In this document: positions 3,572-13,454 of the stretch, piece by piece | Position numbering within the stretch: the stretch's first letter is position 1 | Layout of the letters: every line of letters begins with the position of its first letter | From: Rhodospirillaceae bacterium | GTDB lineage: Bacteria; Pseudomonadota; Alphaproteobacteria; UBA8366 | NCBI GenBank assembly: GCA_002718015.1 | Contig: PBCW01000064.1 | Location: 10,312-23,771 of the forward strand | Direction of reading: 5' to 3' | Length of the DNA: 13,460 bases | The notes under the pieces: generated by a model | What the model was told of the DNA's origin: nothing | Seen by the model: the letters and a program-made list of their open reading frames with translations, nothing else | Databases searched by the model: none | Position numbers and translations under genes: made by a program

Positions 3572-4375
3572 TTACTTTACTGCTTGCATGGTTTCATTAT
3601 TCTCGCCCATCGGTTCATCATCCCAAATTTTTTTCGGCATTGGCAACCCTATGAATACACTCTCGTCAATTGGCTTTGAGGGCGGGTGACCTCTGTTTTC
3701 TAGATACATCTTAATCTGCCGGACGTGTTGTCCAGGGTGCCAAGTTACCCGTTCAAGAAGTTCCCTCAATGTCACATCACCCCAATAAGCATTAGCAGGC
3801 TCGGTCCCGTCTCCTGCATAAGACGAATGCCAGGCTTGAAAACGCTTCAGCACGGCGAGACCATAATTTGCGAGATCAGTACCGCTTATTATATCTTTCG
3901 GATGAGGTATGTCTGCTATGGTCGTGTGGTATTCCTCCGCTTCTCCATCCATAAGCTCGCAGAATGCTTCAACTATGCGGTAAACATGGTAACAAAGTTG
4001 CCTAATTTTACGGTCCCGATTAGGGAGCTTAGGCTCCAGATCTCCATCCTGCATCTCTTTCATGTAAGATATTGCTGCAAAAAGAATGATATCCATCTTG
4101 GCTGCCAGCTCATCTACACTAAACTCTTTAATGTCGCCAAGAGGAATTCCGACAAAGTCACAAACGTCCTTTAACTTTTGCCCCATAACATAACTCATTC
4201 CGCGAGAAATGGCAGGAATACGTTTAATTCCAATGCGTTGGAGCATGGCCATCCCTTCTGGATTTCCATGAACATTTACCGATTCGTAAACAACCCCACG
4301 GGCCGTAAGAAACTCTTTAAGTCTCAGGCAACTAGTTCATCCTGGCTGCCAATAAACGTATAGCGGTTCTGTCAT
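3572..4375 (-). CDS. Candidate selenoprotein: glutaredoxin-like domain (UxxC) fused to a DinB-like domain, in-frame UGA at codon 13
   Basis: From the ATG at 4375 the frame reads MTEPLYVYWQPG, then UGA (minus strand of 4337-4339), then TSCLRLKEFL, and continues open to 3572, giving 267 residues. Residues 1-75 look like a glutaredoxin/NrdH-type thioredoxin fold. A redox motif U13-T-S-C16 follows strand 1, the ARGVVYESVNV strand follows, and Pro54 in KRIPAI is the cis-Pro. Residues of about 85-235 resemble the DinB/YfiT-like four-helix fold, with likely metal-binding His130 (QLCYH) and the pair His213/His217 in WHPGQH. UGA replaces the first, nucleophilic Cys of a CxxC motif, the classic position for selenocysteine. 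The only strong ribosome-binding site belongs to this ATG; the internal ATGs at 4258 and 4252 lack a well-spaced one. UGA is used as a normal stop nearby. Several DinB-fold enzymes use thiol cofactors, so a selenol-disulfide reductase coupled to a metal-dependent thiol enzyme is plausible (inference). A nonsense mutation or sequencing error is the alternative. Confidence 0.75.
4302..4329 (-). promoter_or_regulatory. Possible bSECIS-like hairpin just after the in-frame UGA
   Basis: On the mRNA, GAGACU (4325-4320) can pair with AGUUUC (4314-4309) in six pairs including one G-U, closing a UAAAG loop. Below it, GCC (4329-4327) can pair with GGC (4304-4302) across an internal loop of 1 and 4 bases. 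The apical loop lies 18-22 bases after the UGA, within the range known for bacterial SECIS elements. However, known elements usually carry a G in the first two loop bases, and here the only loop G is the last. The fold was drawn by hand, without energy calculation. Confidence 0.4.
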
Positions 4376-4383
4376 AATTATTG

Positions 4384-4391
4384 CCCTCCTT
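4384..4391 (-). promoter_or_regulatory. Strong ribosome-binding site that fixes the upstream start of the selenoprotein candidate
   Basis: The minus strand reads AAGGAGGG, a near-perfect Shine-Dalgarno, 8 bases before the ATG at 4375. Without UGA readthrough it would serve only a 12-codon peptide. Its strength is the main argument that translation begins upstream of the UGA rather than at 4252. Confidence 0.85.
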
Positions 4392-7773: not shown

Positions 7774-9066
7774 GTGGATAAATCCCCTAATAAAATGTCA
7801 TTAAGTGAAGCTGCTTTCGCAATCGAGACAGGAAGCATTTCATCCGAAACTTTGGTAAAATCCTGCATAGAGCAAATTGAGGCGCGTGAGAGCTCAGTTC
7901 AGGCTTGGGCATACTTCAATCCTGAGCTTGCACTTAAGCAGGCCCGGGATCTAGACAAAACGTCAACAATCGGGCCTTTGCATGGCATACCGATCGGGAT
8001 AAAGGATATTATCGACACAAAAGATATGCCCACCGAATATAACTCACTAATTTATAAAGATCACCAACCATCCGTTGATGCAGTATGTGTCTCAAAACTG
8101 CGACAAGCCGGGGCAATAATAATGGGCAAAACTGTAACTACGGAGTTCGCATCAAGTTTTCCGGGGCCCACACGCAATCCAAATAATACTGCTCATACAC
8201 CTGGCGGCTCTTCACAAGGTTCGGCTGCTGCGGTAGCCGATTATATGGTCCATGGTGCATTAGGAACTCAGACCGGCGGCTCAGTAATTCGCCCTAATGC
8301 TTATTGCGGAACCGTTGGTTATAAGCCACCGTACAACACATATAATAAAACTGGGGTTAAACCACTAGCTCCAACAATGGATACCATCGGTTTAATGGTG
8401 AGGAATATTCACGATGTCGGACTTTTATCCAGCACTCTTTCAGGAGTAAAACCAGAAAAGGTGACCGACAATACCATACCAAAGTTACTCTTACATCGAA
8501 CAGGTCAATGGGATGCCGCAGAAGAATGTATTCAGACGCTAATTGAAGATTGCGCCGCAAAATTTTCTGATGCCGGAGCAAAAGTACGTGACCATGCATT
8601 TCCGCAGCCATACGACAATCTTCAAGCGCTCCAGAGAGTGGTCATGGCGATAGAGGCTTGCCGGGAGTTTAAGTTTGAATGGACCAGTCACCAAGACATG
8701 TTGAGCAAATCTTTTCAAGACTTGATCTTACGCGGATTCGAAACGACTCCGGAAGAAAGAGGTGAAGCTGAGGGTCTGTTGAAATATTCGCGAGAAAATG
8801 TGTCTGAAATGTTTGAAGTCGGTGATATCCTGCTTACACCTGGCGCGCCAGGTGAGGCACCAAAAGGCATCGAAACTACGGGTAATTCAATTTTTAATCG
8901 AGCTTGGACCTTTTTAGGAGTAGCATGTCTGTACTTGCCTGTAACAACTGGCCCGCATGGGCTGCCAATTGGAATCCAATTGGTAGACCCGCATAACGAT
9001 GAAAGGCGTCTGCTTTCTGCAGGGATATGGTGTGCTAAAGTCCTTGGGCTCAATAAGATCATTTAA
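7774..9066 (+). CDS. Amidase signature family hydrolase
   Basis: The 430-residue protein has the amidase signature core with the Ser-cisSer-Lys triad. Lys77 is in GIPIGIKDIIDT, the cis-Ser is Ser146 in PGGSSQGSAAAVA, and the nucleophile is Ser170 in GTQTGGSV. Spacings of 69 and 24 residues match those in characterised amidases such as malonamidase E2. The segment GTQTGGSVIRP departs from the commoner GTDTGGSIR but is seen in some subfamilies. Members hydrolyse amide or carbamoyl bonds; GatA is one member, but no GatB or GatC is nearby, so a catabolic amidase is more likely. The start is GTG at 7774, supported by AAGGTG 5 bases upstream; the in-frame ATG at 7795 has no ribosome-binding site. 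The next gene begins 10 bases after the stop, indicating an operon. Confidence 0.93.
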   Translation: MDKSPNKMSLSEAAFAIETGSISSETLVKSCIEQIEARESSVQAWAYFNPELALKQARDLDKTSTIGPLHGIPIGIKDIIDTKDMPTEYNSLIYKDHQPSVDAVCVSKLRQAGAIIMGKTVTTEFASSFPGPTRNPNNTAHTPGGSSQGSAAAVADYMVHGALGTQTGGSVIRPNAYCGTVGYKPPYNTYNKTGVKPLAPTMDTIGLMVRNIHDVGLLSSTLSGVKPEKVTDNTIPKLLLHRTGQWDAAEECIQTLIEDCAAKFSDAGAKVRDHAFPQPYDNLQALQRVVMAIEACREFKFEWTSHQDMLSKSFQDLILRGFETTPEERGEAEGLLKYSRENVSEMFEVGDILLTPGAPGEAPKGIETTGNSIFNRAWTFLGVACLYLPVTTGPHGLPIGIQLVDPHNDERRLLSAGIWCAKVLGLNKII

Positions 9067-9076
9067 AGATAATAAA

Positions 9077-9838
9077 ATGCTAAATACCGGAAATAATGTG
9101 CTCATTACAGGTGCTGGCAAACGAATAGGAGCTGCCCTGGCTAAAGAAATGGCTGCAGAAGGGTGGCATGTGTGTGTACATTACAATAAATCCTTAACCG
9201 AAGCCCAAAAGGTAGTGAAGGATATCATTTCAAAAGGCGGACAAGCGACACCAATTCATGCGGACCTTGCTGATGCAAAGGCGCCAGAGAAATTAATAGT
9301 AAGATGTCAGGAAGCGGTCGGGGCCCTAAATTGCCTTATCAATAATGCGTCTATATTTGAGTATGATGAACTTGATAGCATTAACGCAGGTTCCATCGAT
9401 CTTCATCATGCCATAAATTTACGAGCACCGCTTCTATTGTCCCAAGCCTTTTCAAAAAAAATTCCTAAGAAAGAAAAAGGCAACATAATAAACATTCTCG
9501 ATAATAAAGTAATGGCACCAAATCCGGATTACATGTCCTACACACTCAGCAAAGTGGCGCTCAAAGGTGCAACCGAGATATTAGCAATGGCCATGGCACC
9601 ACGTATTAGAGTCAATGGAATTGCTCCTGGCATTACTCTTTTGTCAGGCAAACAATCTAAATCGCGTTTTGAGAAAGCGCATACAACCAATCCACTTAAA
9701 AAGGGGTGTACCCCTGGACAAATTGCCGCTGCGCTAAAGCTTATACTTGACTGTCCTGCGATGACCGGTGAAGTCATTGTGCTTGATGGAGGCCAAAAAC
9801 TACAGCGTCTCCCGCGCGACATAGCTTTTCTAACCTGA
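9077..9838 (+). CDS. folM: Short-chain dehydrogenase, FolM-like pterin reductase
   Basis: The 253-residue SDR has a cofactor motif TGAGKRIG (11-18) with HYNKS after strand 2, a pattern typical of NADPH-using pteridine reductases. It also has NNAS (89-92) and the catalytic Tyr155/Lys159 (YTLSK). The usual catalytic Ser region instead reads NILDNKVMAPNPDYMSY with Asp142, the arrangement of FolM dihydromonapterin reductase and trypanosomatid PTR1. It would reduce dihydromonapterin or dihydrofolate to the tetrahydro form. The FolB-like aldolase 20 bases downstream strongly supports a pterin role. I chose the ATG at 9077, which directly precedes the Rossmann strand. The frame is open upstream to an ATG at 8999 inside the amidase gene, but that would add 26 residues with no family counterpart. 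The ribosome-binding site is weak (AAAGAT); translation may be coupled to the amidase. Confidence 0.85.
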   Translation: MLNTGNNVLITGAGKRIGAALAKEMAAEGWHVCVHYNKSLTEAQKVVKDIISKGGQATPIHADLADAKAPEKLIVRCQEAVGALNCLINNASIFEYDELDSINAGSIDLHHAINLRAPLLLSQAFSKKIPKKEKGNIINILDNKVMAPNPDYMSYTLSKVALKGATEILAMAMAPRIRVNGIAPGITLLSGKQSKSRFEKAHTTNPLKKGCTPGQIAAALKLILDCPAMTGEVIVLDGGQKLQRLPRDIAFLT

Positions 9839-10535: not shown

Positions 10536-11978
10536 ATGGTTAAAAATGTTTTATTCATCATGTCGGATGAGCATCAACAGAAATCAAGTGGGTGCTATGG
10601 ACATCCATTCGTCAAAACACCGACTATAGATGCACTGGCTGCGAGCGGTACTAGATTCACAAATGCTTATACAAATTCGCCAATCTGTGTTCCTGCGCGA
10701 GCCAGCTTTGCGACAGGTCGATATGTTCACGATATAGGATATTGGGATAATGCGCATGCGTATGAAGGGCGTGTTGAGGGATGGGGGCATGCACTACAAA
10801 AGGCAGGGATGCAGTGTCTTTCTATTGGCAAGCTGCACTACAGAAGCGAGAGCGATCCAACCGGCTTTAATGAGCAGATTGTCCCTTTGCATATTGTTGA
10901 TGGTAAGGGGGCTATTGGCGGCAGTGTAAAACAGCCATTGGCTCCACCGATAACAAAAAGCAAACTGGCTTCGAATATTGGTCCGGGAGATTCTGGGTAT
11001 ATTCGTTACGATCAATCCATAATGGAAAAAACAGTAGAATGGCTGAAGACTGAGGCTACACGCCTTACCGACAAGCCATGGGCATTATTTTGTTCTTTCG
11101 TTTGTCCGCATTTCCCATTGATAGCACCGCAGGATTTCTATGACCTTTATCCTCATGAAATGCTTCCTCACCCCAAGGGTAATTATAAAGATTATCCGCT
11201 GCATCCATGGATAGAAAAGTTCCAAAAACTTCAGTGCCATGACGATTTCTTTACAGAGGAAAGTCGGAAAGTAGCTATAGCTTCCTACTATGGACTTTGC
11301 TCATACCTTGACTCTAACATTAATAAAGTAATTACAGCGTTAGAACAGGCGGGCCTTCGAGACGAAACACTTATCGTTTACACTGCAGATCACGGAGAAA
11401 ACTTAGCGACAAGACGTCTATGGGGCAAATCAAATATGTATGAAGAGGCAGCAGCAATTCCAATGATATTGTCGGGGCCCGGCGTACCATCAGGCAAAGT
11501 AGTAAATACACCTGTCACTTTGGCAGATGGCTCTGCAACTATCCTTGAAGCGCTGGGCCTAACCGATACACACCCAGGTGAAATACGCTCGCTGCGCGAG
11601 ATAGCAAACGAAGGTGATAACTTAGAGCGAGTTGCTTTTAGCGAATACCATGCAACGGGAGCAGACACTGCATCCTTTATGATTAGAAAAGGCCAATACA
11701 AGTACATTCATTATGTTGATTACGAACCAGAACTTTTTGACCAAGTGAATGATCCAGAAGAGGAGCAGAATGTAGCGAATGACCCCAAGTTTGCCAGTAT
11801 TATGGAAGACCTTCAGAACGAGCTTTATTCTAGGGTAGATCCGTTAGCCGTAAACGATGCTGCTCAAGCATCACAAGCCGCTTTAGTAAAATCAGCTGGC
11901 GGCAGAGATGCCGTGTTGTCTAAAGGGACATTCCAAGGAACTCCGGCCCCAGGAGAAAAAGCAGAATATATTCAATAA
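10536..11978 (+). CDS. Formylglycine-type sulfatase, first of a tandem pair (choline-sulfatase-like fold)
   Basis: This 480-residue protein is an alkaline-phosphatase-superfamily sulfatase. It has NVLFIMSDEHQ (4-14) with metal ligand Asp11, and the signature CVPARASFATGR (51-62) in which Cys51 would be converted to formylglycine. It also has GKLHYR (Lys99, His101), CPHFP (His192), TADHGENL (metal ligands Asp285, His286) and WGKSNMYEE (Lys298). No signal peptide is visible, so it should act in the cytoplasm on an imported sulfate ester or related phosphonate ester. It needs a formylglycine-generating enzyme, which is not in the window. Compared with its paralog, it has Glu12 for Gln. The usual DVAPTILD block is altered to DGSATILE (331-338), and the following loop is shorter. 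GGGGAGG lies 7 bases before the ATG. The second sulfatase starts 21 bases after the stop. Substrate unknown. Confidence 0.92.
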   Translation: MVKNVLFIMSDEHQQKSSGCYGHPFVKTPTIDALAASGTRFTNAYTNSPICVPARASFATGRYVHDIGYWDNAHAYEGRVEGWGHALQKAGMQCLSIGKLHYRSESDPTGFNEQIVPLHIVDGKGAIGGSVKQPLAPPITKSKLASNIGPGDSGYIRYDQSIMEKTVEWLKTEATRLTDKPWALFCSFVCPHFPLIAPQDFYDLYPHEMLPHPKGNYKDYPLHPWIEKFQKLQCHDDFFTEESRKVAIASYYGLCSYLDSNINKVITALEQAGLRDETLIVYTADHGENLATRRLWGKSNMYEEAAAIPMILSGPGVPSGKVVNTPVTLADGSATILEALGLTDTHPGEIRSLREIANEGDNLERVAFSEYHATGADTASFMIRKGQYKYIHYVDYEPELFDQVNDPEEEQNVANDPKFASIMEDLQNELYSRVDPLAVNDAAQASQAALVKSAGGRDAVLSKGTFQGTPAPGEKAEYIQ

Positions 11979-11999: not shown

Positions 12000-13454
12000 A
12001 TGAAACCAATGAACGTGTTATTTATAATGTCTGATCAACACCAAGGTAAGGCTTCAGGCTGCTATGGACACGACTTTGTTCAAACCCCAAACATTGATAA
12101 GCTATCTGCCTCAGGCACGCGCTTTTCAAGTTCATACACCGATTCGGCAATTTGTGTGCCCGCTCGTGCGGCTATTGCTACGGGAAAATACGTACATCAG
12201 ACGGAATATTGGGATAACGGACACCCCTATGAAGGTCGGATCAAAGCATGGCATCATATGCTAAAAGAAAATGGTGCCTCAGCCACTTCAATAGGTAAGC
12301 TCCACTTTCGAAATGAGACTGACAATACGGGCTTTGAAAAGCAAGTGATCCCGATGCATGTTGTTGAGGGTAAGGGGGATGCCCGCAGCTGCATAAAGCG
12401 GCCTATGACCCCACCCATGACGCAAAGTAAGACTATGACCGACATTGGTGCAGGGCAAACATCCTACCAGCATTACGATAACAAGATAGCAGACAATGCC
12501 TGTGAGTGGCTGCGTGTTAAAGCCGCTGACCCAAACACCGATCCATTCTGTGCCTTCGTCTCCTTCGTATGTCCTCACCCTCCCTATAAGGCACCGCAGA
12601 AATTCTATGATTTTTATAATAAAATCGATATGCCGATCCCAAAACTCCGTGATCCTGACTCCGAGTATCACCCATGGATAAAATTATCTCAGTCTATGCG
12701 AAACTACGATGATTTTGTCACTGATGAAACTTTGCCTATGCTCATGAAATCATACTATGGATGTATATCGTATTTAGATATGAATATCGGCAGGGTTATT
12801 TCTACTCTGGAAGAAACAGGTCTTCGTGATAACACAATCATTATTTACACATCTGATCACGGCGAAAATTTGGGAACACGGCGACTTTGGCAAAAATCAA
12901 ATATGTACGAAGAAGCATCTTTCATCCCGATGATACTCTCTGGGCCAGGGGTGCCGGCCGGTAAAGTAATTGACACTCCTGTCACTCTAGTCGATGTCGC
13001 TCCAACCATTTTGGATGCACAAGATTTAGAAGAAGTAAGCAAATCTCATAGGCTTCCTGGGACATCCTTACTAAAGCTTGTGCAGGAAAAAAATGAAGCT
13101 AATAGGTTTGCTTTTACGGAATATCACGCTGCGGCCGCTGAACGCTCAGTATTTATGATTCGCAAAGGAAAGTATAAATATATTCACTATGTTTCCTTTC
13201 ATCCCGAATTATTTGATCTCGAAAAGGATCCAGATGAACTCAGCAGCTTGCACGAACATCCAAATTATTTGTCGACCTTAGCAGAACTGGAAGCCGATTT
13301 ACGGTCCATCTGTAATCCGGAGGAAATTGACGAACGAGCATATCTTTCGCAGTGTGCTAAAGTCGAGGCTGCCGGCGGGCGTGCAGCTGTTATGGCACGA
13401 GGAAAATATCAAGGCACGCCAGTTCCCGGACAAAACGCTGAGTATCTAACCTAG
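12000..13454 (+). CDS. Formylglycine-type sulfatase, second of a tandem pair
   Basis: The 484-residue protein is clearly paralogous to the preceding gene along its full length. It has NVLFIMSDQHQ with Asp12, signature CVPARAAIATGK (52-63) with Cys52 as the formylglycine precursor, GKLHFR (Lys100, His102), CPHPP (His193), TSDHGENLG (Asp286, His287) and WQKSNMYEE (Lys299). It keeps the standard DVAPTILD and PGTSLL blocks that the first copy has lost. Both share the C-terminal pattern GGR..V...G..QGTP.PG...EY. No signal peptide is seen. AGGAG at 11987-11991 lies 8 bases before the ATG, so the pair is an operon. The role is inferred as sulfate-ester cleavage in the cytoplasm, possibly of a substrate related to that of the first copy; phosphonate monoester hydrolase activity cannot be excluded. 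The stop is 6 bases before the window end. Confidence 0.92.
   Translation: MKPMNVLFIMSDQHQGKASGCYGHDFVQTPNIDKLSASGTRFSSSYTDSAICVPARAAIATGKYVHQTEYWDNGHPYEGRIKAWHHMLKENGASATSIGKLHFRNETDNTGFEKQVIPMHVVEGKGDARSCIKRPMTPPMTQSKTMTDIGAGQTSYQHYDNKIADNACEWLRVKAADPNTDPFCAFVSFVCPHPPYKAPQKFYDFYNKIDMPIPKLRDPDSEYHPWIKLSQSMRNYDDFVTDETLPMLMKSYYGCISYLDMNIGRVISTLEETGLRDNTIIIYTSDHGENLGTRRLWQKSNMYEEASFIPMILSGPGVPAGKVIDTPVTLVDVAPTILDAQDLEEVSKSHRLPGTSLLKLVQEKNEANRFAFTEYHAAAAERSVFMIRKGKYKYIHYVSFHPELFDLEKDPDELSSLHEHPNYLSTLAELEADLRSICNPEEIDERAYLSQCAKVEAAGGRAAVMARGKYQGTPVPGQNAEYLT

Follow-up and report, generated by a model that had tools for sequence, protein, structure and literature searches.

A predicted selenoprotein that joins a selenocysteine-containing glutaredoxin to a DinB domain in Alphaproteobacteria

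The DNA considered here is a stretch of 13,460 nucleotides (nt) from the Rhodospirillaceae bacterium assembly GCA_002718015.1 (contig PBCW01000064.1, positions 10,312 to 23,771 of the forward strand), and the whole of this stretch is referred to as the window. At 3572..4375 on the minus strand the window carries a gene of 268 codons, counted with the TAA stop codon, in which a glutaredoxin is fused to a DinB domain and codon 13 is UGA. This fusion gene very probably encodes a selenoprotein of 267 residues with selenocysteine (Sec) at position 13. The computational support for this reading is strong and comes from the recoded frame, the Sec/Cys pair seen across relatives, the match between the gene and the Sec machinery, a hairpin that resembles a bacterial selenocysteine insertion sequence (bSECIS) and the two folds of the protein. 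All coordinates of the fusion gene given below are on the minus strand.

Results

The gene was defined from its reading frame, Pfam matches and relatives. The original prediction, made from the letters of the window, described an ATG at 4375 with a Shine-Dalgarno site, a UGA at codon 13 and then 254 further codons, and this description proved correct base for base. The start codon (4375-4373) is preceded by the Shine-Dalgarno sequence AAGGAGGG at 4384..4391, the frame is open for 254 sense codons past the TGA at 4337..4339, and the TAA ends at 3572. The frame and the codons of relatives indicate that the UGA is read as Sec, which gives the motif U-T-S-C with Cys16. Standard open reading frame (ORF) calling starts instead at the internal ATG of codon 42 (4250..4252), as had been anticipated, and yields a shortened protein of 226 amino acids. 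The codons in front of the UGA are conserved. Codons 1-12 of the window gene and of its congener L013 encode 12 identical residues out of 12, with a nonsynonymous divergence (dN) of 0.0 and a synonymous divergence (dS) of 0.32, and for codons 14-60 dN is 0.019 and dS is 0.418. Because codons 1-12 are kept with synonymous change, because the start ATG and the AAGGAGG upstream of it are kept too, and because the same TGA is found in relatives, the fusion frame is more than chance. Eleven likely genes of the window were checked and an in-frame TGA is unique to the fusion gene. TGA terminates two of the other ten, which agrees with the claim that UGA is an ordinary stop in the neighbouring genes.

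Relatives were obtained from three sources. One search covered 98 related genomes, the window's own included. A scan of genome contigs gave 416 relatives, and its codon counts cover the best 80 of them; these two sets overlap and several loci are the same genes. A protein-database search found 132 relatives, of which 120 are listed, and position counts come from pairwise comparison of those 120. Two stand-alone glutaredoxins with Cys (L033 and L038) were dropped before counting, as were four pieces of frame-broken copies in genome G022 (L032, L036, L039 and L040) in which codon 13 is not resolved, and a partial copy (L037) was left out of the tree.

The fused gene is present in 22 of the 98 related genomes, a 23rd match (G082) being a stand-alone glutaredoxin. 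Codon 13 is TGA in every one of the 24 readable loci, which represent 21 of the 22 gene-bearing genomes. Among the best 80 of the 416 loci it is TGA in 52, TGC in 22 and TGT in 6, and neither TAA nor TAG occurs there in the loci read. All 88 listed database proteins that reach position 13 have Cys at positions 13 and 16. The redox motif, Sec or Cys at position 13 with Cys16, is intact in these 88 proteins and in 80/80 loci. The UGA had been placed at the nucleophilic Cys position, with the suggestion that homologues should have Cys there, and relatives do carry the first Cys of the glutaredoxin CxxC at this codon. A misread TGC or TGT, the error that had been considered, is very unlikely with TGA recurring across many assemblies. 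It had also been considered that all homologues might start from the internal Met, which is not so. The N-terminus is lacking in 32 of the 120 listed relatives, which begin downstream of position 13, and this would be the expected outcome if annotators took a UGA for a stop. One example is P0007, named a hypothetical protein, whose contig has the same length (125,522) as the one with locus L068, where codon 13 is TGA. The alignments of these late-starting entries begin at codons as varied as 17 and 53, with many from 42 or 44. A tree of 94 proteins requires 2 changes between Sec and Cys in either direction, where shuffled labels need 24.4 on average.

Two genomes, G003 (L018 and L034) and G007 (L017 and L035), each have two fusion paralogues, and all four have TGA at codon 13. 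The equal-scoring copies in G022 (C8:1896-2649 and C55:6753-7506), whose N- and C-terminal pieces were matched separately, are possibly assembly duplicates or decayed genes.

The distribution of the gene follows that of the Sec machinery. In the relatives search selA is above cut-off in 26 of 98 genomes, namely 21 of the 22 with the fusion gene and 5 of the 76 that lack it. In the genome-contig set selA is above cut-off in 49 of 52 TGA genomes (47/50 plus 2/2) versus 4 of 28 Cys genomes, and of the three remaining TGA genomes two have selB and tRNA-Sec. The congener G002, whose fusion protein is 98% identical, has selA, selB and tRNA-Sec (anticodon TCA) within 3.6 kilobases (kb), with selD elsewhere. 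In the window's own assembly, which is 84% complete, selA was found on a contig that ends 31 nt past the gene, and the last 28 bases of this contig align with the start of the G002 selB, the translation of which begins MIVATAGHIDHGKT. The Sec machinery that was to be looked for in the same genome has accordingly been found in part, as selA and the start of selB, and all four genes are present in G002; tRNA-Sec and selD of the window's own assembly are considered in the Discussion.

The first 28 bases of selB (L006 2887-2914, at the end of contig C17 of G000) were not listed by the selB profile search. The best selB profile match in the window's own assembly was rejected, since its translation looks like what we take to be EF-Tu, with an adjoining frame that is presumably EF-G-like. 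Rfam tRNA-Sec matches at five places in this assembly were also rejected because ARAGORN reads them as tRNA-Ser (three), tRNA-Leu and tRNA-Cys. On contig C48 of G095 some 7 kb separate the Sec gene (65028-65789) from tRNA-Sec, selB and selA (72592-76066). In L148-L152 the selD matches, of about 305 residues, are inside open frames of 755-766 residues, and the sequences suggest that SelD may be fused to another domain in these loci.

A putative bSECIS hairpin is located at 4290..4306 and consists of ACGGCCC (4306-4300), a GUG loop (4299-4297) and GGGUUGU (4296-4290). In the published consensus model (PMC13188914), a bSECIS has a loop of 3-9 nt with a G in its first two positions, a stem of 4-16 base pairs (bp), a loop 16-37 nt past the UGA and a minimum free energy (MFE) of at most -7.5 kcal/mol. 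The hairpin of the window gene has 7 bp, its loop starts 37 nt past the UGA and the 54-nt MFE is -13.0, all within these limits. The MFE fold of the same 54 nt has a second hairpin upstream of the one with the GUG loop. When repeated 54-nt stretches are counted once, there are 49 distinct Sec sequences, which are compared with 28 Cys sequences. A fitting hairpin of at least 6 bp is found in 49/49 of the Sec sequences versus 1/28 of the Cys sequences, and 48 of the 49 satisfy all of the published limits, energy included. The Sec hairpins occur at two places, with a spacing of 36-37 nt in 36 sequences (loops GUG, CGUGC and CGUGA) or of 23 nt in 13 sequences (loop GUU). Under a slightly different hairpin rule, 11% of synonymous shuffles of the Sec genes have such a hairpin, as do at most 10 of 49 stretches further downstream in the same genes. 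Pairing is kept in 96.8% of the cells of an alignment of 36 sequences, and two of the pairs show two-sided changes (UA to AU or GU; UA to CG). None of 500 shuffles equals the observed covariation score or number of changed cells, in a test that is inflated by relatedness.

Both domains of the protein are recognizable. The glutaredoxin (thioredoxin-fold) domain comprises residues 2-78 (4142..4372) according to Pfam and the predicted model, and its Pro54 is invariant in alignment A2. The Pfam Glutaredoxin (PF00462) match spans the UGA, at residues 7-56, with 30.9 bits against a cut-off of 22.9. The DinB/STL four-helix domain, residues 84-239 (3659..4126), is assigned from a sub-threshold Pfam match together with the predicted model. 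The model has a glutaredoxin fold and a four-helix DinB fold, and fold matches agree with both. Searching the PDB by sequence with only the DinB half gave no useful match. Conservation points to a presumed metal triad made up of His130 (3986..3988), His213 (3737..3739, in a WHxxQHxRQ motif) and His217 (3725..3727). The three residues are kept in 80/80 loci and in 119 of the 120 listed database proteins, the remaining protein being unaligned there. The idea of a metal-dependent DinB-fold thiol enzyme is upheld as far as the fold and the His triad are concerned, and the metal and the reaction stay at the level of proposal.

Gene neighbourhoods were compared for the 61 of the 80 loci that have at least 8 kb (39 Sec and 22 Cys), and neighbour clusters were named from the Pfam matches of one example each. 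No neighbour common to the whole family was found among these 61 loci. The commonest are an ABC transporter (16 loci), a TctC receptor (15, of which 13 are Sec loci) and a glyoxalase-fold protein (8), mostly at Reyranella-type loci. In the window the neighbours are MmgE/PrpD, FAD-dependent enzymes, an amidase and sulfatases. The neighbours in the window and at Reyranella-type loci look catabolic or transport-related, and since they are not conserved no substrate is named. Two adjoining sulfatase-family genes (PF00884) lie in near-tandem on the plus strand of the window, at 10536-11978 and 12000-13454. Two small ORFs of similar length also adjoin each other, at 1095-1538 and 1556-1993. The first has a 4HBT thioesterase match, and the second is without a Pfam match though it resembles the first by eye. 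The short-chain dehydrogenase ORF at 8999-9838 overlaps the end of the amidase ORF, and its true start is probably further in.

Discussion

Several observations count against the selenoprotein reading and have to be weighed with the evidence above. The sequences are related by descent and the counts are not independent. Four Cys genomes have selA, and so do five relatives without the fusion gene (G006, G049, G056, G069 and G076). In the TGA genome G147 selA, selB and tRNA-Sec were all not found, and in G053, which is 77% complete, selD was found and the other three were not. In the window's own assembly neither tRNA-Sec nor selD above cut-off was found, at 84% completeness. At the published minimum stem of 4 bp a fitting hairpin is seen in 10/28 Cys sequences, compared with 49/49 Sec sequences, and the Sec/Cys contrast therefore depends on how long the stem is. 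At -7.4 kcal/mol, the Sec sequence L035 falls short of the published energy limit. The numbers of pairs with two-sided changes and of pair types are unremarkable, with 218 and 206 of 500 shuffles as high. Folding energy 3' of the UGA has no more than a slight advantage over synonymous shuffles (mean z -0.40 for Sec and +0.06 for Cys, p 0.037). Plain folding energy was set aside as a SECIS test on account of this weak Sec/Cys difference, the loop-specific hairpin tests being informative. The DinB_2 match (residues 104-221) of the window protein alone has 22.3 bits, below the cut-off of 24.8; membership of the STL/DinB superfamily is described as being by fold rather than by sequence (PMC5815605).

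If the selenoprotein reading is correct, ribosomes would initiate at the ATG at 4375, and SelB with Sec-tRNA-Sec, recruited by the GUG-loop hairpin 37 nt downstream, would insert Sec at codon 13. Sec13 would occupy the nucleophile position of the glutaredoxin domain (Sec13-x-x-Cys16), and translation would run on into the DinB/STL four-helix domain. By analogy with the STL transferases (PMC5815605, PMC10950700), His130, His213 and His217 probably hold a divalent metal. A thiol of low molecular weight may be activated at this metal site, and in these Proteobacteria glutathione is the likeliest one. The activated thiol could then be transferred to an electrophilic metabolite, or an isomerisation could take place on it, in the manner of mycothiol and bacillithiol transferases. 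The mixed (seleno)disulfide that results would be resolved by the selenol/thiol domain. This thiol-transfer mechanism is a tentative proposal with somewhat less than an even chance of being right. It may be that the protein represents a new class of selenoenzyme with two sites on one chain, a metal-dependent thiol-transferase site in the DinB domain and a selenol site in the glutaredoxin domain, which would conjugate a thiol to a substrate and then reductively remove or recycle it. Such an enzyme would have a layout like that of glutathione transferases, a thioredoxin-fold domain with a helical domain, yet one built independently. This broader idea is speculative and, on the whole, unlikely.

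A different function has to be considered for the DinB half. It could serve only for binding or as a scaffold, in which case the protein would simply be a disulfide reductase or peroxidase that depends on Sec and serves one partner. The redox motif is complete in every locus and every protein that could be read, and most of the DinB-fold matches are to proteins without an assigned function by title, both of which fit this suggestion. The His triad, kept in nearly all of the relatives compared, as in the metal-dependent STL transferases (PMC5815605), speaks against it. A scaffold role is possible, though we consider it doubtful.

The selenoprotein could also be one of two products of the gene. 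With Sec-tRNA available the full fusion would be made, and without selenium termination at the UGA followed by an internal restart would give a DinB-only product that has its own role. The ATG of codon 42 is present in the window gene, and codon 42 or 44 is where the alignment of many shortened database entries begins. Other shortened entries align from codons as far apart as 17 and 53, which speaks against this idea, and we regard a selenium switch of this kind as improbable.

It is very improbable that the UGA is a real stop, in a decayed gene or through a sequencing error, with a DinB-only protein made from the internal start. The start at 4252 in standard ORF calling and the missing N-terminus of the shortened entries would agree with this, but many genomes share TGA at this one codon, with TAA and TAG not seen there in the loci read, codons 1-12 and the Shine-Dalgarno sequence are conserved with synonymous change, and TGA tracks selA. 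Recoding of the UGA as another residue, by Trp insertion or near-cognate read-through, is equally hard to credit: in-frame continuation by itself leaves the residue unnamed, but Cys is the sole residue in relatives (88/88 listed proteins and 28/28 non-TGA loci), TGA terminates other genes of the window, and the fusion gene co-occurs with the Sec machinery and a SECIS-like hairpin.

The selenoprotein reading has several implications. An annotation error recurs among the listed database relatives, 32/120 of which lack the redox half. Having paired Sec and Cys forms, the family is naturally suited to testing rules for the bacterial SECIS. Carriers of the Sec fusion include cultured Reyranella strains (L111, L124 and L129) and marine alphaproteobacterial assemblies (for example L128). 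According to a 2006 survey (PMC1794560), formate dehydrogenase was the sole selenoprotein of those Alphaproteobacteria that were known at the time to decode Sec. Since the survey names formate dehydrogenase alone, the fusion family may give such lineages a further reason to retain selenium decoding.

Comparison with known systems

Among the known systems closest to the Sec fusion are Cys glutaredoxin-DinB fusions, which have the same architecture and about 32-44% identity, are often named 'glutaredoxin' by their sources and occur in records titled Alpha-, Beta- and Gammaproteobacteria. They differ in having Cys in place of Sec; the long SECIS-like hairpin is seen in 1/28, and 24 of 28 genomes are without selA above cut-off. 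Sec glutaredoxins (PF00462), such as that of Clostridium oremlandii, share the UxxC motif with the Sec fusion. To our knowledge these are small single-domain proteins, whereas the fusion protein adds a DinB domain with its His triad in all 80 loci. The STL or DinB-YfiT thiol transferases (BstA/YfiT, mycothiol S-transferase and mycothiol-dependent maleylpyruvate isomerase) share the DinB fold and the His triad with the fusion protein, and we know of none with a glutaredoxin domain or Sec. The Uxx-star and HUGP-GUXX-star families (NF041212 and NF045501) are also glutaredoxin-like Sec domains, one of them fused, but the fusion protein is far below their cut-offs (26 of 66 bits and 21 of 325 bits). 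No NCBIfam model reaches its cut-off for the fusion protein. Glutaredoxin is among the 119 prokaryotic selenoprotein families inventoried in 2026, which include no DinB protein (PMC13188914 Table 1). No report of a glutaredoxin-DinB selenoprotein was found in the literature at the level of titles and the beginnings of abstracts, with subscription papers and preprints outside the scope of the search. On this evidence, both the selenoprotein family and its domain pairing are new, within the known kind of UxxC thioredoxin-fold selenoproteins.
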